In this document: positions 4,392 to 47,459 of the stretch, one piece after another
Layout: every line of letters starts with the position of its first letter
Numbering within the stretch: position 1 is the stretch's first letter
DNA from: Candidatus Zixiibacteriota bacterium
GTDB lineage: Bacteria; Zixibacteria; MSB-5A5; GN15; FEB-12
Direction: 5' to 3'
DNA: 64,000 bases
Assembly: GCA_028289585.1 (NCBI GenBank)
Contig: JANQPI010000020.1
Coordinates: 346,039-410,038, forward strand
Made by a program: the position numbers and the translations under genes
The notes under the pieces: generated by a model
Databases searched by the model: none
Seen by the model: the letters and a program-made list of their open reading frames with translations, nothing else
What the model was told of the DNA's origin: nothing

Positions 4392-4955
4392 CGGGTGTCG
4401 TCCACGTTTCGTCGCCGCACAGTGCAAAATGTGGAGTTGTCAGCCACAATCTGTTGTCAGCCTGTGCTAGCGAAACGTAGCGCTACTGATGCTGTCACAC
4501 GCTCAATTCTTTTCACAATGTGATTGCGCGGATAAACGACTGATTGTCAACGGACTCGCCCGATGTGGTTGTTAAGTGTCACGATCACCTGACGCAAATT
4601 GTCCACAATGTCGATGGTAAACGACTGGCGTAATTGCTTATCGCCCAAACTGTTTCTTAATAATTCCGAAAACTGTCGGGAGAGCTCTTGCTCAGGCGCA
4701 GCTCACGGGCTACCTAGCAGCATCAAAGCAGTTGTCGCGCATCATGTTAGCAAGATGTGGATAACGTTCACTCAAACCGTTTCAGCTGTTGATTGATACA
4801 GACTTAACTCGAATGGAAACAGTCATGGAGTGTGGAAAGAATTGTGGATTACTGAGTCCGTTCCGCCCGCACACAGGCACCAACCGCTTATCTCTACGCT
4901 ATTTGCAGGATGTGGAAAGTGGGGATAACAGGAAGCGTATGGGGGTTCTGATTTC
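4392..4955. other. Candidate replication origin (oriC), mrp-dnaA gap
   Basis: A 564-base gene-free stretch, more A+T-rich than its surroundings, directly before dnaA. It contains one perfect DnaA box (TGTGGATAA, 4756-4764), near-matches TTGTCCACA (4599-4607) and TGTGGATTA (4843-4851), and two looser TGTGGAAAG words (4831, 4911). The words occur in both orientations, as in known origins. No A+T-rich unwinding block stands out clearly. Short open frames inside lack ribosome binding sites and family resemblance. Calling it oriC is inference from position and boxes; the dnaA promoter must also lie here. Confidence 0.6.
4756..4764 (-). promoter_or_regulatory. DnaA box, perfect match
   Basis: TGTGGATAA, the reverse complement of the consensus TTATCCACA, about 190 bases before the dnaA start. 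It could serve in origin activation and in dnaA autoregulation. Confidence 0.65.
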
Positions 4956-6473
4956 ATGGAACGACAGCGTAATTCACGCGAATGGACCGATTGCTTACGG
5001 TACATCTCTGGTCGGATGCACCAAAACACCTTCGAAACCTGGTTTCGAAACACCAGTGGACAGCCTACCGAAATAGGCGAATTTGAGATCCTGGTCGCCA
5101 ATGATTTCTGTGCCGACTGGATCGACAAACATTACCGAGACATTATCGAGGAATCGTTCAACGAGGTACTCGGACAGGAGTACGACATCCAGTACCGCAT
5201 CCTCAAACAGGAGGAGGCGGCATCTCAGATCTCGCTGGAAGTTCCGTTCACTGTCGATCCGCCCACACTGATCGACGATACCGAGAGCCTAGCGGCCGCC
5301 GTCACTGAAGAACAAATCAATTCCGGGCACGCGGCTAATGGCAGCTCGCAAGGTTACGCCACGGTCAATGGTTCAGGTACGGTGGTTGTTACCCCGGTCG
5401 ATGAGGATCCAAGGCGCAAATCGGAAGCAACGAGTAACGAACAGCCGTTCAAAACGAATCTGAACGCGAAGTACCGATTCGATAATCTGGTTGTCGGTGA
5501 CTTCAATCGCTTTGCCTGTGCCGCCGCTCGCGCAGTCGCCGAGGCGCCTGGTGTGGGGCGGTACAACCCGCTGATGATCTACGGTGGCACAGGGCTGGGT
5601 AAAACGCACATCGTCCAAGCTATTGGACACGAAATCGCTGAAACGATGGACGGCCGCCGCGTGCTGTATGCAACCTCCGAACAGTTCACGTCGGATTTCA
5701 TTCGCGCGGTTCAAACCCACCGCGTGAACGATTTTTCACAGGTCTATCGGGAGGTCGACCTGTTGATCATCGACGATATCCAGTTCCTTGCCGGGAAAGA
5801 AGGAACGCAGGAGCAGTTCTTCCACACCTTCAATCAGCTCTATCATGATCAAAAACAGATCATTCTGACATCCGATCGCGCTCCCCGGGAGTTGAAGAAG
5901 CTCGAAGACCGACTCGTCTCGCGATTCCAGTGGGGTCTGGTTACAGACCTTCAGGCTCCCGACCTCGAAAACCGGTCAGCCATTATCTACAAGAAGCTCG
6001 AGAAAGAGCGGATCTCAGTCCCCGATGATGTTGTCATTCATATCGCCAACGTCATCAAAGACTCAATTCGCGACATCGAGGGGGCAATAAACCGACTCAC
6101 CGCCTACGCCCGCCTGTATGATCAGGAAATCACGATTGAGACTGCACGTAACCTGTTGAAAGACAGCGCTGGCACATCGGCGACGACCGTTACGATTGCC
6201 ATGATTCAGAAAGTGACCGCCCAGCACTTCGGAATCGACCCGAAGCTGATGAAGGCAAAGAAGAAGAACCAACCGGTCGCCCGGGCCCGCCAGGTCGCCA
6301 TGTATCTCGCGCGTATACTAACCAAGCTCCCCCTCAAGACGATTGGCGAAGAGTTTGGTGGTCGTGATCACACCACCGTGATGTATGCCCATGACCTGAT
6401 TCAGTCGAAGCTGGCTGAGGACCAGTCATTACGCGAAAAGATTGACAATATCACCGCCGAGCTTTTGTATTGA
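4956..6473 (+). CDS. dnaA: Chromosomal replication initiator DnaA
   Basis: Binds DnaA boxes, oligomerises with ATP and opens the origin. All four domains are visible in 505 residues: domain I (about 1-80, with the TFETWF motif), a long low-complexity linker (about 85-165), the AAA+ domain with Walker A GGTGLGKT at about 210-217 and Walker B LLIIDDIQFL, and domain IV with the DNA-binding signature GGRDHTTVMYAHDL near residue 468. The linker explains why the protein exceeds the usual 450 or so. The gap before it carries DnaA boxes, so autoregulation is likely. Confidence 0.98.
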   Translation: MERQRNSREWTDCLRYISGRMHQNTFETWFRNTSGQPTEIGEFEILVANDFCADWIDKHYRDIIEESFNEVLGQEYDIQYRILKQEEAASQISLEVPFTVDPPTLIDDTESLAAAVTEEQINSGHAANGSSQGYATVNGSGTVVVTPVDEDPRRKSEATSNEQPFKTNLNAKYRFDNLVVGDFNRFACAAARAVAEAPGVGRYNPLMIYGGTGLGKTHIVQAIGHEIAETMDGRRVLYATSEQFTSDFIRAVQTHRVNDFSQVYREVDLLIIDDIQFLAGKEGTQEQFFHTFNQLYHDQKQIILTSDRAPRELKKLEDRLVSRFQWGLVTDLQAPDLENRSAIIYKKLEKERISVPDDVVIHIANVIKDSIRDIEGAINRLTAYARLYDQEITIETARNLLKDSAGTSATTVTIAMIQKVTAQHFGIDPKLMKAKKKNQPVARARQVAMYLARILTKLPLKTIGEEFGGRDHTTVMYAHDLIQSKLAEDQSLREKIDNITAELLY

Positions 6474-6731
6474 CGCCTTGTGGAGAGCCGGTGGAACAGC
6501 TGCGGAACAACTGGGGACAGTTTTGACACGGTGGACAACCACTCGTTTTATTCGATGATTTGCACACCCGTACTGGGGACAATGTCAAGCTGCTCACAAT
6601 GGGTAAAGTATTGATGAAGCAACAGGTTAACGAGATGAATGTCAGTTGGAGTGAGGACGTACTCACAACCTCACCGGCCTTATTATCTCTATTCTCCTGT
6701 TTCTCTAAGAAAGAAGAATAAGAAAGAGAGT
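6474..6731. other. dnaA-dnaN intergenic region
   Basis: About 280 bases lie between dnaA and the chosen dnaN start. The first half has short TGTGGA/GTGGACAA and TGGGGACA words that only loosely resemble DnaA boxes. The second half is A-rich before a perfect hairpin at the dnaN start. A second origin arm or the dnaN promoter could be here; neither is demonstrated. An in-frame upstream extension of dnaN from 6639 has no family resemblance. Confidence 0.35.
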
Positions 6732-6748
6732 GGGGAGAATATCTCCCC
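6732..6748 (+). promoter_or_regulatory. Inverted repeat in the dnaN leader
   Basis: GGGGAGA (6732-6738), ATA, TCTCCCC (6742-6748): a perfect seven-base-pair hairpin whose 3' end is eight bases before the dnaN ATG. The GGGGAG arm is the only Shine-Dalgarno-like sequence nearby but lies too far upstream in linear distance. The hairpin may shift or occlude the ribosome site, or be an operator half-site pair. Confidence 0.4.
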
Positions 6749-6755
6749 GGATTGT

Positions 6756-7871
6756 ATGAAGTTTTCGCTCACCAAGTCGAGATTGTCGCAGAGCCTCGGC
6801 TCGATTTTACAGGTCGTTCCAACCAAGTCAACATTGCCGATTTTGACCAACATTCTGATTGAAGCGCTTGAGGGTAAACTCAAGCTATCGGCAACAGATC
6901 TCGATATATCGATTTCGGCGACGGTCGAGTGCTCCGTTGTCAAAAAAGGAGCGGTTGCGCTGCCGGCCCGTATTCTCTTTGAGATCATCCGGGAGCTGCC
7001 GGAATCAGAGATCACGTTCGAGGGAACGACCAATCGCGTCGAGATCCGCATTCCGAACGGCACCTACAAGATCGCTGCGGTTGCACCGGAGGACTTCCCC
7101 AAACTGCCCGCCGTCAATACCAAGAAAGAGATCAAGATTCCGGGCGACCAACTCGTCACGATGATTCGCAAGACAACGTTCGCTTGTTCAAGCGATGAAA
7201 CGCGTCCGGCGCTTAATGGTGTCCTCTGGCACACCAAGGGGGACCGGATGATGATGGTTGCGACCGACGGTCACCGGTTGGCGCGGATGTCGACGGAGAA
7301 CACGCGTCTCAAGGGCGTTGCCGACGATATCATTATTCCGCCCAAAGTTCTGAATCTGATCCCGCGTTTTGTCGACGAGGAAACGCCCGGTGAGATCGGC
7401 ATCATCTTCGGAGATAACAATATCATCTTCAATCTCGGTTCGGTCGTTCTCACCTCGCGTCTGATCGAGGGGCCGTATCCGAACATCGATCCGGTCATTC
7501 CGACCGGCAACGATAAGAAGCTGCAGGTCAACAAGGATGAGCTCTCCGGCGCCGTGAAACGAGTTTCGATTCTGTCGAATGCGTTGACGCACCAGGTGAA
7601 GTTTGCCGTGAAGCCGGCGTCCTTGACCCTTTCGACAAACAACGCCGATGTCGGCGGGGAGGGGAAAGAATCGCTGCCGTGTGAATACGACGGCGATACC
7701 CTTGAAATCGGGTACAACGCTTCGTACGTCTCCGAAATCCTTTCCAAAATCGAAGGGGACGATATCGTCTTTGAACTGTCGACGCCCGTTGCCGCTGGTC
7801 TGGTGTACTCGCCGAACGTGTCGAAAGACGATTACCTCTGCCTGATCATGCCCTTGCGGCTTGCTGACTAA
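6756..7871 (+). CDS. dnaN: DNA polymerase III beta subunit (sliding clamp)
   Basis: A ring-shaped processivity clamp that tethers polymerase III and other repair proteins to DNA. From the ATG at 6756 the protein is 371 residues, the normal clamp length, beginning MKFSLTKSRL and containing the conserved KSTLPILTNI stretch. The C terminus ends LIMPLRL, the canonical end that forms part of the partner-binding pocket. An open frame extends 39 codons upstream, but that extension does not look like clamp sequence. It sits between dnaA and recF in the classical order. Confidence 0.97.
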   Translation: MKFSLTKSRLSQSLGSILQVVPTKSTLPILTNILIEALEGKLKLSATDLDISISATVECSVVKKGAVALPARILFEIIRELPESEITFEGTTNRVEIRIPNGTYKIAAVAPEDFPKLPAVNTKKEIKIPGDQLVTMIRKTTFACSSDETRPALNGVLWHTKGDRMMMVATDGHRLARMSTENTRLKGVADDIIIPPKVLNLIPRFVDEETPGEIGIIFGDNNIIFNLGSVVLTSRLIEGPYPNIDPVIPTGNDKKLQVNKDELSGAVKRVSILSNALTHQVKFAVKPASLTLSTNNADVGGEGKESLPCEYDGDTLEIGYNASYVSEILSKIEGDDIVFELSTPVAAGLVYSPNVSKDDYLCLIMPLRLAD

Positions 7872-15469: not shown

Positions 15470-15982
15470 TCAGGGAGTGAGGCCAGAAGCTCTCGAGTAT
15501 AGTTCGTCTGCCGCTTCTTCCATATCATCAAGCATGGCTTTTAGATGGGGCTTAAGGAGTTCAAATTCGGCTCTACGCTTCTGAGAGTCAAAGCTACGAT
15601 TCCTAAGATAGACAATGGTGCTTAGTGCTTCGAGTTCAACGGGTTTCTTCTTTCCCAACCACTTACAGAGTTCTATCGAAGGAGCGTTCAATGACTCTCC
15701 AGCGGACACACCCTCTGGATTTGACAAAGAAATGGTCATGATTCCAAGAGCATCTTCATCTACGACCAAATCTCCATTCAACTTCCACTGCTCAATGTCC
15801 CGTGCGAGCATCGCAGAATAGACTCCGTAGTTGTGAAAGTAGAAACGATAACCAAAGTCTTCAGAGGTCGTTTGAAGTAAATATATCAGTTTATGTATCT
15901 TCTTCATACTTCGGACTTTGCCGGCTCGACCAGCGGTTCGTAGCACCGCCCTGACCTTCTTCGTACGATTGTCTGAAGTCAT
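15470..15982 (-). CDS. YwgA-like protein, partner of the HD phosphohydrolase
   Basis: A 170-residue soluble protein. The segment KKIHKLIYLLQT followed by FGYRFYFHNYGVYS resembles the YwgA/Panacea-like group, whose members carry a winged-helix-like fold (MxKLxKLLY pattern) and often act as partners of toxins or enzymes. In Bacillus subtilis ywgA lies beside ywfO, which encodes an HD phosphohydrolase, matching the arrangement here. The start overlaps the HD gene stop by four bases (ATGA), so translation is probably coupled. The base composition is visibly A+T-richer than ileS or uvrA. Role unknown; regulator or antitoxin-like partner are possibilities. Confidence 0.72.
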   Translation of the reverse strand: MTSDNRTKKVRAVLRTAGRAGKVRSMKKIHKLIYLLQTTSEDFGYRFYFHNYGVYSAMLARDIEQWKLNGDLVVDEDALGIMTISLSNPEGVSAGESLNAPSIELCKWLGKKKPVELEALSTIVYLRNRSFDSQKRRAEFELLKPHLKAMLDDMEEAADELYSRASGLTP

Positions 15983-17412
15983 TTCCTTGATCCCATCAGT
16001 TTGGTGAACTTCCGATCCAGCGTTTTGCGTTCTGTCTGAACCACAACGAGAATCTGCTCTTCTTGCTGCTTGGAACCATCAGCAATCAGCTTTGACAATG
16101 GATCTTCAAAGTACTTGAATGCACTTTCCTTGAACTTCCATGGCTTTGAATCAGCTTCATCATTGATGACCCAAATCTGCTTTTTCTCATCACTCTTGTA
16201 CAAGGCTCTATTCGCATTCAATGTCTGGCAGTAGTATTTCTGATTTTCTGCACCAACAACTCTCTCAACTTCTTTCTGGAATTCACCAACAGCCGAAGGA
16301 TCTTTTTTTGCTAAGTCAGTAAGGCTGTACGAAGAAATGTGTTCGCGACCTAGAAAGACTCTTGCAAGGTGCTTTAAAACCACATCAGAGGTAGGGATAT
16401 CCACGGCTGCTCTTAGCAACCCATAGATCACGTAGTCATCCAGAGAGAGGTAGCCTTCAACATCAAGACTCTTTGCATCAGATTCCTTGCGATCAATGGC
16501 ATTAGCAATCTGAGCGAATCCCTTGGGCGTGTCGATGGAGAGAGGTGATTGCTTATCGACCAAGAGATCAACATATCTCTTGAGAAATCCTCGCAACACT
16601 CCTTCGTATTTCAGTACCGTCTTGTGAAAGTAGACATTCTCATATAGGTGGAATAATCCGATTAACCATGCCTGAAGTGCTCCCTTCGCTCGCCTCAGAT
16701 TAAGCACTGGTCGCATCGTTTCAGGCGGTTTACGCCCTTTCTTCTCAACAGAAGAGTCATCAGGAGTATTCATGGCCTGGAAGTTCCTTAACAACCAGTT
16801 CATATCAGCGATTCCGTATTTTACACCAGTGGCTAAAGAATCGCGCAGCATGTAATCGGAACGATCAGCATCGAACTGAGACGTTATGATGCTGCCAAGA
16901 TCAACGCGTTTGGCTTCACCTTCTGTGATCAAAACTAGGCTTCCATCTAATAACGAGATCACTCGCTCGGCGAAGTCGCTACTCTGTTCTGCGGCCAAAC
17001 TTCTCAATTCAGGATCATTTGCGATGATCTTTTGTGACCAAGCTTCATGGTTAGAGACCACCGCGTCAAAGCTGAAGTTATCCCACTCGCCTTGGAGGAG
17101 GTTTTCGAAGGAGTGGCTAAATGGACCATGACCAAGATCGTGAGCAAGAGCAGCGAAAAGGACAACAGCTCGATCATTACGATTGAGATCTAAATCCAAG
17201 TGATCCATCATCTTTCCCGCTAAGTGCATCACTCCAATGGAATGCTGGAATCTCGAATGTTCCGCGCCCGGATAAACAGACGAACAACACGCTAATTGGC
17301 GAATGCGCCTGAGACGCTGCATAGATCGCGAATCCAAGAGCTTCAGAAGAACATCGTGTTCAATGCGAATCACGTCGTGAATCGGATCACGTATAAACTT
17401 TGGAATTCCCAT
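15979..17412 (-). CDS. SAMHD1-like HD-domain (deoxy)nucleotide phosphohydrolase
   Basis: A 477-residue soluble HD hydrolase resembling YwfO and SAMHD1, which remove the triphosphate from dNTPs. The metal ligands are all present: His57 (RFQHSIG), His91-Asp92 (HDLGHGPFSH) and Asp183 (DADRSDYMLRD). The last motif also retains the residues equivalent to SAMHD1 Tyr315 and Asp319. The opening FIRDPIHDVIRIE is typical. I chose the ATG at 17412; a GTG at 17424 would add four residues. It is the first gene of a two-gene operon behind a likely repressor-controlled promoter. Its low G+C suggests transfer. A dNTP-depletion defence role is inference. Confidence 0.85.
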   Translation of the reverse strand: MGIPKFIRDPIHDVIRIEHDVLLKLLDSRSMQRLRRIRQLACCSSVYPGAEHSRFQHSIGVMHLAGKMMDHLDLDLNRNDRAVVLFAALAHDLGHGPFSHSFENLLQGEWDNFSFDAVVSNHEAWSQKIIANDPELRSLAAEQSSDFAERVISLLDGSLVLITEGEAKRVDLGSIITSQFDADRSDYMLRDSLATGVKYGIADMNWLLRNFQAMNTPDDSSVEKKGRKPPETMRPVLNLRRAKGALQAWLIGLFHLYENVYFHKTVLKYEGVLRGFLKRYVDLLVDKQSPLSIDTPKGFAQIANAIDRKESDAKSLDVEGYLSLDDYVIYGLLRAAVDIPTSDVVLKHLARVFLGREHISSYSLTDLAKKDPSAVGEFQKEVERVVGAENQKYYCQTLNANRALYKSDEKKQIWVINDEADSKPWKFKESAFKYFEDPLSKLIADGSKQQEEQILVVVQTERKTLDRKFTKLMGSRK

Positions 17413-17435
17413 ACTCCCCCGCACGCGATAATGGC

Positions 17436-17463
17436 ATAATACTGCTCATTTGGGCAGTATCAA
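17436..17463 (-). promoter_or_regulatory. Sigma-70-type promoter of the HD/YwgA-like operon, overlapped by a palindrome
   Basis: On the minus strand TTGATA (17463-17458) and TATTAT (17441-17436) are separated by 16 bases, giving a start site about 15-20 bases before the ATG at 17412. The palindrome ATACTGC-N8-GCAGTAT (17439-17460) fills the space between the two hexamers and overlaps both. That is where a repressor would block polymerase. Confidence 0.6.
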
Positions 17464-17464
17464 G

Positions 17465-17486
17465 ATCACATCTGCACAAATGTGAT
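17465..17486. promoter_or_regulatory. Second operator-like palindrome upstream of the HD/YwgA-like promoter
   Basis: ATCACAT-N8-ATGTGAT, perfect seven-base arms with an eight-base spacer: the same geometry as the palindrome inside the promoter, but with a different arm sequence. The two centres are 26 bases apart. It sits just upstream of the -35 hexamer, where an activator or a second repressor would bind. Confidence 0.45.
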
Positions 17487-44229: not shown

Positions 44230-46071
44230 GTGGATAAGAAAACCCTCCCCATCATCATTCTGCTCGTTCTCGCGATCATCTTCTATTTCCCGATTCTGGA
44301 ATTTCTGGGTGTCTACACACCAGCCGAACGTCCGGACGGTCCCGCTGACACCACGACTGCCGTCGAGACGACCATCGCCGCACCAGATACGCCCCTTTCC
44401 GAAACGATCGGCCTCGACACCACCGTACCGCCATCGGGTGGGCTCGGTGACCTGGCTGAGTCGGCACAGTTGGACGCAGCCACACCATCGACTCTCGGGC
44501 AAGCGGTCGATACACTGAGTCGACCGGCTGACACGATCGTTGTCGAGACCGAGCGATCGATTATTGCTTTGACAACTGCCGGTGGTGGACCGGTCTCCAT
44601 CCAATTGAAAGAGTATGCGTATCGGGATGGTATGCTCGACGGTCAGCCGATCGAGTTGCTGCCGCGAACCGATGAGCCGGTGCCGGACGCACGCTTCGCC
44701 GGTGGATCGGCATCGAGCAATGCGGAAACGTATGTGACCAATACGCGACCGGGTCGTTATCAAGTGACTGCCAACGACAGCATGACTGTCGATTTCACAT
44801 ACGACGGTCCTAACGGCGGCCGACTGACGAAGTCGTATACATTTTACGGCGACCGCTACGACTACCGGTTTGTTCTCGATGTCGATCAGCGGGAACGGCT
44901 CGGCATTGAACGCCGCTATGATCTCGTTTGGAACAACCCCCTTGATATTACCGAACCGGACCGTCAACCGGACTACGATGCGTTCGAGGTCATCGCCTTC
45001 CAGGCGAATGAGCGCGTCAATCTGAAAGATTGGAACGAAGGACGCCTCGAACAGGAACGTACCGGTACGACCTCATGGCTCGGTGTCCGCTCACGCTACT
45101 TTGCGGGCGTACTCGTTCCGCTGAATCGATTGGGCGACGGTGCCTTTGCCAACGGTGACCAATTCCAGCGGACTGTCGACGGCGAGGGACTGCGTGTCAA
45201 ACGCATGACCGGTGGGCTTGAAATCCCGATCGAGCTTGCCTCATCGTTCAGTGATTCATTTCTGATCTATGCCGGTCCACTCGACTACGAAGAACTGAGT
45301 TCGTACGAGCGCGGTCTTGAGGACATTCTCGGAATTGGTACGACACCGTTTGTCGGATGGATCATCAAGCCGTTCGCGGTAGCGATCAATTGGCTGCTGC
45401 CACGCATGTACAGTGTAATCCCAAACTACGGCCTGGTGATCATCCTCTTTGCTTTCCTGGTCAAGCTCGTCACCCTCCCGCTGTCGATGCGCGCGTTCAA
45501 GTCGATGCAGGGAATGAAAGACCTCGCTCCCAAAATGGAGGAGCTCAAGAAAAAGTACGAGAAAGATCCGCAGCGCATGTCGCAGGAGACGATGAAGATG
45601 TACAAGGAGATGGGTGTCAATCCCCTCTCCGGCTGCTGGCCGATGATCGCCCAGATGCCGCTCTTCTTTGCGCTCTTTTCAGTCTTTCGTTCCACGATTC
45701 TGCTTCGCGATGCGCCGTTTGTCTGGCCGATTACAGATTTGTCACACGGGGCAACCGGCTTCACCGATCCGTATATCATTCTGGTCGTCATCATGGTCGG
45801 TGCTCAGTTCATTTCGCAGCGATTGACCACCCCACAGACCGCGCAGAATAAGATGCTGCTCTATCTGATGCCGCTCTTGTTCGGTTTTCTGTTTTATCGT
45901 TTCGCGGCCGGTCTCGTGCTGTATTGGACGACCTTCTCCATATTGTCACTTCTGGACTGGTTCTTGTTCCGTCGGAAGCATATGCAGGAAGTTGCGGTAG
46001 CTGCCGATGGCGAAGTGAAGCCAGCCAAACCGAAAGCGAATCCGCCCGCTCGGAAGAAGAAAAAGAAGTAG
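44230..46071 (+). CDS. yidC: Membrane protein insertase YidC
   Basis: Inserts and folds inner-membrane proteins, alone or with SecYEG. The GTG at 44230 with GGGAG seven bases upstream gives 613 residues: an N-terminal membrane helix (about 6-27), a large periplasmic domain typical of Gram-negative YidC (about 50-370), then the conserved five-helix core beginning GWIIKPFAVA with the cytoplasmic coiled hairpin and a Lys-rich C-terminal end. A longer open frame to 44200 lacks a ribosome site. A terminator follows. Confidence 0.95.
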   Translation: MDKKTLPIIILLVLAIIFYFPILEFLGVYTPAERPDGPADTTTAVETTIAAPDTPLSETIGLDTTVPPSGGLGDLAESAQLDAATPSTLGQAVDTLSRPADTIVVETERSIIALTTAGGGPVSIQLKEYAYRDGMLDGQPIELLPRTDEPVPDARFAGGSASSNAETYVTNTRPGRYQVTANDSMTVDFTYDGPNGGRLTKSYTFYGDRYDYRFVLDVDQRERLGIERRYDLVWNNPLDITEPDRQPDYDAFEVIAFQANERVNLKDWNEGRLEQERTGTTSWLGVRSRYFAGVLVPLNRLGDGAFANGDQFQRTVDGEGLRVKRMTGGLEIPIELASSFSDSFLIYAGPLDYEELSSYERGLEDILGIGTTPFVGWIIKPFAVAINWLLPRMYSVIPNYGLVIILFAFLVKLVTLPLSMRAFKSMQGMKDLAPKMEELKKKYEKDPQRMSQETMKMYKEMGVNPLSGCWPMIAQMPLFFALFSVFRSTILLRDAPFVWPITDLSHGATGFTDPYIILVVIMVGAQFISQRLTTPQTAQNKMLLYLMPLLFGFLFYRFAAGLVLYWTTFSILSLLDWFLFRRKHMQEVAVAADGEVKPAKPKANPPARKKKKK

Positions 46072-46072
46072 A

Positions 46073-46103
46073 CCAAAAGGGCGGGAGATTCCTGCTTTTT
46101 TGG
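46073..46103 (+). terminator. Likely intrinsic terminator after yidC
   Basis: Arms at 46073-46086 and 46090-46103 pair over 14 positions (three G-U) with a three-base loop; the 3' arm ends in TTTTTTGG. It would end the rpmH-rnpA-yidD-yidC transcript. Confidence 0.55.
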
Positions 46104-46343
46104 ACCACTGCTTGAATTTTCACGCCGATCTAATTGGCTGATCACGACTTGATTGTCGGCGCCGGCCACTAACCATTCATTATGGCAAAGTATACTTAGC
46201 TCACTAGTCTGCTATCGCTTCGTTATTCGCCTCTCCGCATCTTGTCAAAAACAGTGCAGTCCATCCATATTGTGATGAGGAATGTCATTTCTGTCATTAA
46301 GTCGAGATATGATTTCCGAAATCCACAGATGAGGAGGCACAAC

Positions 46344-47459
46344 ATGTCAGCTCTCATTCCACGATTCAAGTTAGTGAAGTTTGTTTTGGCGCCGTTTGCG
46401 GGTATGATTTTGCTGTTGATCTTGCCAAACAAACTATCGGCTGTCGTTGACGACACGATTGTAGTTCGACTTTCGATCCATTCTATATTCAATGGGGATA
46501 CAACACTTGGCCCCACTGAAGCTGAAGTTGATGCGGCTATTGCTGTAATGGAAACGGATTTTGCCGTTTACGATATCTATTTCTATACAGTCGTACATGA
46601 CTCAAGCTTCAGTGATTTTGTTTATGCGACGGATCATTATTCTCGAGCGCGTTCTGTCAGACCACCGGACGACAACGCGATCAATATCTATCTCTTTGAA
46701 CCCAACTACACGGCTCTCTCGGAAGCGAGCATTCCGAATAATCCGAGCGATCTGTCAATGACGGTTTGTGGCTCTGATGAATGTGACGCGACTGAGAGAA
46801 TGTTCACAGCTGTAATGACTCATGAAATGGGGCATTGTCTTGGCCTGTGGCATCCCTGGCAAGGAGGTCCGAATTCTTGTCAAGACACGTCGCCTGGAAA
46901 CTCCTGCGATGAATGTGGTGACTTGGTTTGCGACACACCGCCAATGCCTGAGAGCTACGAGTGTGATCGATATACTCAGGGTCCCTACTGTCGCCCCGTC
47001 GATCCCATTAGTTGTCAACCTGATGCCTCTCAGTGTCCTCCACCGCCGATTAGTGAGGATCCGGACGATCGTGATCGAGCACGCCAGTGGGCGAAGACTG
47101 CTGCAACCACCTACGGAGCGACAACCAACTATATGACCTGGTCGTGGCCAGAATGCATGGATCACTTCACTGATGGGCAGGTAGATCGTATGAAGACGAC
47201 AGTTGATACGTCGATCTTCTATCGACGACATACCATTGGTTGCGGTGACCTCAACGCGAATGGCCTTATTGACGATGGTGATCGTCAAACTTTGACCAGT
47301 TACCTGTTTGCAGGAGGTTCCGCTCCGTATCTGCTCTGTGTTGGTGATGTCAATAACGATGGCGTCGTCGGCCTTCCCGACTTAATGACCCTGATCGGCT
47401 GGATAAATGCAGGGACTACGGAACCGAGTTCGGATTGCCTGGATGATTGTTTGCAATGA
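46344..47459 (+). CDS. Secreted M43-like metalloprotease with C-terminal dockerin repeats
   Basis: A 371-residue secreted protein: signal anchor-like N terminus (residues 9-30), a zinc protease domain with MTHEMGHCLGLWH (HExxHxxGxxH) near residue 180, a downstream CGDLVCDTPP and YMTWSWPECM met-turn as in pappalysin/M43 proteases, and a dockerin-type pair of calcium loops at the end (GDLNANGLIDDGD and GDVNNDGVVGLPD). The ATG at 46344 has GGAGG upstream. The gene is visibly A+T-rich and interrupts the usual yidC-mnmE order. Confidence 0.85.
   Translation: MSALIPRFKLVKFVLAPFAGMILLLILPNKLSAVVDDTIVVRLSIHSIFNGDTTLGPTEAEVDAAIAVMETDFAVYDIYFYTVVHDSSFSDFVYATDHYSRARSVRPPDDNAINIYLFEPNYTALSEASIPNNPSDLSMTVCGSDECDATERMFTAVMTHEMGHCLGLWHPWQGGPNSCQDTSPGNSCDECGDLVCDTPPMPESYECDRYTQGPYCRPVDPISCQPDASQCPPPPISEDPDDRDRARQWAKTAATTYGATTNYMTWSWPECMDHFTDGQVDRMKTTVDTSIFYRRHTIGCGDLNANGLIDDGDRQTLTSYLFAGGSAPYLLCVGDVNNDGVVGLPDLMTLIGWINAGTTEPSSDCLDDCLQ

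Follow-up and report, generated by a model that had tools for sequence, protein, structure and literature searches.

The analysed window is a stretch of 64,000 nucleotides from a Candidatus Zixiibacteriota bacterium. Between ileS and uvrA it carries a small cassette of two genes on the minus strand, preceded by a promoter-like sequence with two palindromes. The initial annotation described an operon of two genes overlapping by four bases, and the minus-strand open reading frames at 15979-17424 and 15470-15982 agree with that description. The features of the locus are as follows.

15979..17424, minus strand: HD-domain hydrolase gene of the EF1143/SAMHD1-type dNTPase family; 481 aa from a GTG start at 17424, 477 aa from the ATG at 17412.

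15470..15982, minus strand: partner gene of 170 aa, predicted stand-alone DarG C-terminal/YwgA-like winged-helix domain.

15979..15982, minus strand: four-base ATGA overlap of the hydrolase stop and the partner start.

17436..17463, minus strand: promoter-like TTGATA-N16-TATTAT, 5' of the hydrolase gene, with 10 of 12 consensus matches.

17439..17460, no strand: inverted repeat of 22 bp, ATACTGCTCATTTGGGCAGTAT, putative operator 1, covering the promoter spacer and the -10 element.

17465..17486, no strand: inverted repeat of 22 bp, ATCACATCTGCACAAATGTGAT, putative operator 2, just upstream of the -35 element.

The ATG at 17412 is a likelier start of the hydrolase gene than the GTG at 17424. 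The ATGA overlap may couple the translation of the two genes. The pair has a G+C content of 45.9% and its flanks one of 57.9%; at third codon positions, the values are 46-47% in the pair genes and 72-75% in the neighbouring ileS and uvrA. A shift in composition had been claimed from the start. The lower G+C of the pair stands, but the figure of 70% given for uvrA was too high, since it was taken from one line of that gene, and the contrast was overstated. Only short imperfect direct repeats flank the pair. Elsewhere in the window, further stretches of lower G+C (48-54%) are found at 4500-7000 and 45500-47000.

The promoter with an overlapping palindrome was likewise recovered, and a second palindrome lies beside it. 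A consensus scan for promoters is by itself not significant (3 sites versus 2.4 expected). None of 5000 dinucleotide shuffles gave two 22-bp inverted repeats within 108 bp, and only six inverted repeats of that kind are present across the whole window. The sequences of the two palindromes differ from each other. Judging from this operator-like pair at the promoter, expression may be autoregulated or controlled by stress.

The product of the first gene contains an HD domain (Pfam HD, 7.8e-12), as initially assigned. Residues 3-399 matched 2o6i, the EF1143 protein of Enterococcus faecalis, in a phmmer search (4e-40) that also matched SAMHD1. The profile of the HD family aligned with EF1143 over positions 6-427 (1e-101). 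The AlphaFold2 model of the protein (pLDDT 85.6) gave as its best structural matches the EF1143 structures 4lrl and 3irh (E ~1e-24), which are complexes with dGTP and dTTP or dATP. The TM-score to EF1143, 0.71-0.80, applies to the whole chain and thus extends beyond the HD core. SAMHD1 is also among the fold matches, and the PDB match 9mr6, considered as CloA, was rejected because it is a fungal SAMHD1. The SAMHD1-type metal ligands noticed at first, His57, His91-Asp92 and Asp183 (numbered from ATG 17412), are all present. An alignment of 36 relatives shows no variation at His57, His91, Asp92, Gly94, His95, His100, His122 and Asp183, and the HDLGHGPFSH stretch is retained. The protein is not a classical Dgt, since its scores lie far under the cut-offs of the curated dGTPase models (25.9 versus 152 bits for the bacterial dGTPase TIGR01353; 17.1 versus 400 bits for the anti-phage dGTPase NF041026). 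EF1143 hydrolyses all four dNTPs and requires allosteric activation in Mg2+ (PMC12186491), and its active form is a tetramer (PMC12042053). The window protein is most likely a hydrolase of the SAMHD1/EF1143 type that would destroy dNTPs, a substrate predicted from family and fold. It resembles the EF1143/YwfO-type dNTPases and SAMHD1 in its full-length fold and its catalytic residues. EF1143-like genes mostly stand alone and are nucleotide-controlled, whereas this predicted dNTPase comes with a protein partner.

The partner in the window matched no Pfam family, and the NCBIfam model DarG was matched by 15 of 15 aligned partners. The first PDB match of the partner profile is 7yk3_B (7e-12), which is DarG in the DarTG complex of M. 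tuberculosis. The same structure ranked first when the AlphaFold2 model of the partner (pLDDT 93.3) was searched with Foldseek (E 7e-4, probability 1.00, TM 0.60). Only the part of DarG that follows the macrodomain is matched. The partner is also 28% identical (E=3e-9) to an open reading frame adjoining a ywfO-like HD gene in Priestia megaterium, in agreement with the YwgA-like assignment made at first. The link to the Panacea antitoxins is weak. In hhalign comparisons with Panacea profiles, the partner reached 73-84% (best P=7e-6), and Pfam PF13274 (Panacea) was matched by none of the 15 partners and by nothing in the organism's own genome. Judged by profile and predicted fold, the partner corresponds to the toxin-binding C-terminal domain of DarG encoded on its own, a better label than YwgA-like sensor. 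The initial annotation had proposed that the partner senses something and controls the hydrolase. With a DarG C-terminal domain in this position, the partner is more likely to restrain the hydrolase than to act as a general sensor.

Partner-profile matches of lower score in the host phylum, those without HD neighbours, include DarG-like genes beside DarT-like open reading frames (L081, L086), DUF488-like fusions (L080, L082, L087) and a Panacea-like protein beside a RelE-like open reading frame (L088); the DarT, DUF488 and RelE labels were assigned by reading the sequences. At L080 and L087, the DUF488-like fusion is followed by a second conserved gene. The three fusion loci possibly correspond to PDC-M19, a PADLOC candidate; the A model of PDC-M19 matches the partner as well. 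A nameless viral protein family, phrog_14939, is matched by 31 of 52 partner proteins. A partner-like fold is also found in the Sulfolobus virus proteins A0A3Q8Q497, A0A2H4RBN9 and A8TKI0 of BFVD (best E 1.7e-4, probability 1.00). These small proteins of unassigned function are candidate virus-borne inhibitors of such hydrolases.

The pairing of HD gene and partner is a widespread module, and the conserved pairing across distant genomes that had been suggested as a check was found. Among 132 genomes of the host phylum, all 23 partner matches with E<=1e-16 adjoin an HD gene on the same strand, with the partner downstream in 18 cases and upstream in 5. Loci of this phylum outside the profile training set were paired in 10 of 10 cases. 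Bacillota, the phylum of a Tepidanaerobacteraceae relative, was sampled with 299 genomes. There, 50 of 60 strong partners have an HD neighbour, in every case on their own strand (48 downstream, 2 upstream), and the other 10 have none. Seen from the HD side, the partner is present at 43 of the 56 strong Bacillota HD genes. The intergenic gap in 36 pairs ranges from -56 to +30 bp. The distances of HD and partner proteins correlate in a mirror-tree analysis with r=0.84, to which shared species history contributes (0/5000 permutations; best random value 0.23). No HD-partner gene fusion was present in the loci scanned. Asymmetric decay of the HD gene and the partner was considered as a toxin signature and dropped, since such a signal is confounded by gene length, assembly errors and ranking bias.

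Within the host family, a strong pair is found in 5 of 54 genomes. The closest two (G034, G008) lie near parB, bactofilin, moxR and DUF58 genes, named by reading the open reading frames, and not between ileS and uvrA. The initial annotation had named the presence of the pair at one place in all close relatives as a refutation of its reading, and this refutation fails. The sporadic, low-G+C character of the cassette is supported. The G+C of the pair is under that of its flanks in 23 of 23 contexts, with a mean difference of 10.4 points. An empty site between ileS and uvrA was not readable in 29 family relatives, since ileS does not lie within 1.5 kb of uvrA in them. On IMG/VR contigs (virus or provirus), the partner is present at 13 of 39 HD loci, representing 11 distinct pairs. 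In one of them (L246), the order is CI-like repressor, other open reading frames, integrase, HD gene and partner. A serine integrase precedes the HD gene in another (L265), and an integrase follows the pair in a third (L277). A single-protein search with the partner gave no close homologues in plasmids, phage records and IMG/VR, and a single-protein scan of genome contigs with the HD protein gave one relative only.

In the HD tree, the window protein groups with those of G034, G008, G093 and G095 (100/98), which belong to the same family and class, so the tree does not demonstrate that the pair arrived recently from a distant phylum. Pairing is clustered on this tree (7 changes versus 18.7 for shuffles). 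Most members of the EF1143/YwfO-like housekeeping clade have no partner, and this clade lies apart from that of the window protein.

Enrichment near defence genes had been another suggested check. It was not evident on chromosomes, where 141 nearest neighbours compared with 140 controls included scattered restriction-modification genes only, and kinase-like models filled the control list. Two pairs on virus contigs lie near HsdR or TIR genes. A few genes from the G034 pair, L033:11493-13414 encodes a MjaI-type restriction enzyme and an N4/N6 methylase with an SNase-like tail. On rhizobial and Roseibium plasmids (L035, L036, L037), a radical SAM protein, a 3'-5' exonuclease, a small AAA ATPase and an HD hydrolase form a conserved four-gene run without a DarG-type partner. 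CBASS-like genes adjoin one of these runs and ABC-three-component genes another, and the run is possibly a separate defence module. Plasmids of Desulfosarcina and Sphingobium (L038, L040) carry open reading frames of about 140 aa directly upstream of 800-aa HD proteins, and the partner profile does not match them.

Nucleotide depletion is an antiviral strategy common to animals (SAMHD1) and bacteria. A bacterial precedent for a restrained enzyme of this kind is Clover, a phage-blocking system whose HD dNTPase, CloA, is toxic when its regulator CloB is missing (PMC12265719). CloB is a nucleotidyltransferase that makes an inhibitory nucleotide (PMC12265719). The window pair would share with Clover its two-gene architecture, an HD dNTPase encoded together with a partner that restrains it, the restraint being predicted in our case, and this precedent underlies the toxin-antitoxin-like logic proposed below. 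The partners differ: CloB is a Pol-beta nucleotidyltransferase, whereas the window partner matches no such family and its predicted structure is a winged-helix domain resembling that of DarG. With DarTG, the window pair shares the homology of the partner to the DarT-binding C-terminal domain of DarG in 7yk3, seen in both profile and fold. Unlike DarG, the partner has no macrodomain, and its neighbour is an HD hydrolase instead of DarT; the DarTG-like loci L081 and L086 provide the contrast. The Panacea proteins (PanA/DUF4065, SocA) are also small proteins encoded next to toxins; they have a K..KL.Y...GP motif like that of the partner and resemble it weakly at profile level, but the partner lies under the threshold of Pfam PF13274. 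Panacea neutralises many toxins by direct binding, and these antitoxins swap among many toxins; the main text of the paper that describes them makes no mention of the HD domain (PMC8832971). The ywfO-ywgA genes of Bacillus-type genomes show the same two-gene order in Priestia, with a homologous partner. The ywfO-like HD protein of Priestia sits in the mostly unpaired housekeeping clade, unlike that of the window.

We consider it somewhat more probable than its negation that the cassette is a toxin-antitoxin-like operon, in which a dNTPase is restrained by a DarG-type binder. In this operon, the HD protein would destroy dNTPs. The 170-aa partner would bind the hydrolase and keep it inactive in healthy cells, as the DarG domain holds DarT. 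Release of the hydrolase could follow, for example, phage takeover or loss of the partner, and the freed enzyme would then deplete dNTPs and block DNA replication of the invader or the cell. The role of such a unit is probably defence. This reading draws on the combination of a likely dNTPase with an antitoxin-type domain in a pair that is tightly coupled, co-diverging, mobile and prophage-borne. The pair also has traits of type II toxin-antitoxin systems, namely a two-gene operon, a small partner, a sporadic and mobile distribution and either gene order. Several points count against it. Enzymes of this type need not be toxic, as the partner-free, housekeeping-like EF1143 relatives indicate. 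The chromosomal pairs are without clear defence enrichment, and some partner genes have no HD neighbour (10/60 in Bacillota). Finally, according to the title of Deep et al. 2023, as cited in PMC12170906, the DarG domain inhibits DarT through ssDNA mimicry, which need not suit a dNTPase.

One alternative is housekeeping control of the dNTP pool, in which a ywfO-ywgA-like operon would have an allosteric or metabolite-sensing partner and no role in conflict. EF1143 is itself an allosterically controlled dNTPase (PMC12186491), and in Priestia the paired ywfO/ywgA-like locus lies among conserved genes. The partner-free EF1143-like relatives adjoin TatD, lipoate-ligase or lipid A genes and appear to be chromosomal housekeeping genes, and the lack of clear defence enrichment at chromosomal pairs also fits. 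Pairs of the window type, however, are sporadic in the family, change place, have G+C under that of their flanks in all 23 contexts and occur in prophages, and the housekeeping clade is mostly unpaired and apart from theirs in the tree. We regard a pure housekeeping role as unlikely.

The mobile, prophage-borne distribution would also suit a partner that acts as a sensor and activator, recognising phage DNA, ssDNA ends or a phage protein and switching the hydrolase on. The partner has a winged-helix-like fold, its lower Foldseek matches are non-significant ones to winged-helix regulators of the MarR/ArsR/Fur type, and dNTPases of the HD family can need activators (PMC12186491). The nearest structural relatives of the partner domain, however, are toxin-binding antitoxin domains, and activation is an improbable explanation.

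HD phosphohydrolases act on a wide variety of substrates. The enzyme could instead act on a nucleotide second messenger, a nucleoside polyphosphate or a modified nucleotide, which would be compatible with any role of the partner. Identity to EF1143 is only about 27%, and the HD tree has several deep clades. Against this, the fold agrees over the full length with SAMHD1 and with EF1143 bound to dGTP and dTTP, and the catalytic set including HDLGHGPFSH is retained; a different substrate seems rather doubtful. It is very improbable that the partner, with its winged-helix-like core, is mainly a DNA-binding autorepressor that acts on the two tandem palindromes over the promoter and has no direct effect on the hydrolase. 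The palindromes differ in sequence, and contact between the two proteins agrees better with the co-divergence and with the kinship to DarG, although the partner could have both roles.

The initial observation is thus confirmed and its interpretation supported in part; the DarG-type identity of the partner and the breadth of the pairing extend the initial proposal. We found no description of an HD/DarG-domain pair in the open-access literature. Tentatively, and at somewhat less than even confidence, the pair may represent an undescribed toxin-antitoxin or defence family of at least two phyla and prophages, in which the DarG toxin-binding domain without its macrodomain serves as a dedicated inhibitor of SAMHD1-type dNTPases. 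DarG C-terminal domains, YwgA, the DUF488 fusions and Panacea would then form a toxin-swapping superfamily of winged-helix antitoxins, and the archaeal-virus homologues would be candidate anti-defence inhibitors.

How healthy cells are protected from their own nucleotide-depleting enzymes is a current question, and Clover was described in 2025. If the proposal is true, the pair adds a second, protein-based leash on such enzymes, derived from the domain with which DarG holds DarT. The uncharacterised YwgA-like family gains a testable function. If the partner binds and silences the hydrolase, DarG-type and Panacea-type domains would together constitute an antitoxin superfamily of general scope, extending to SAMHD1-like enzymes.
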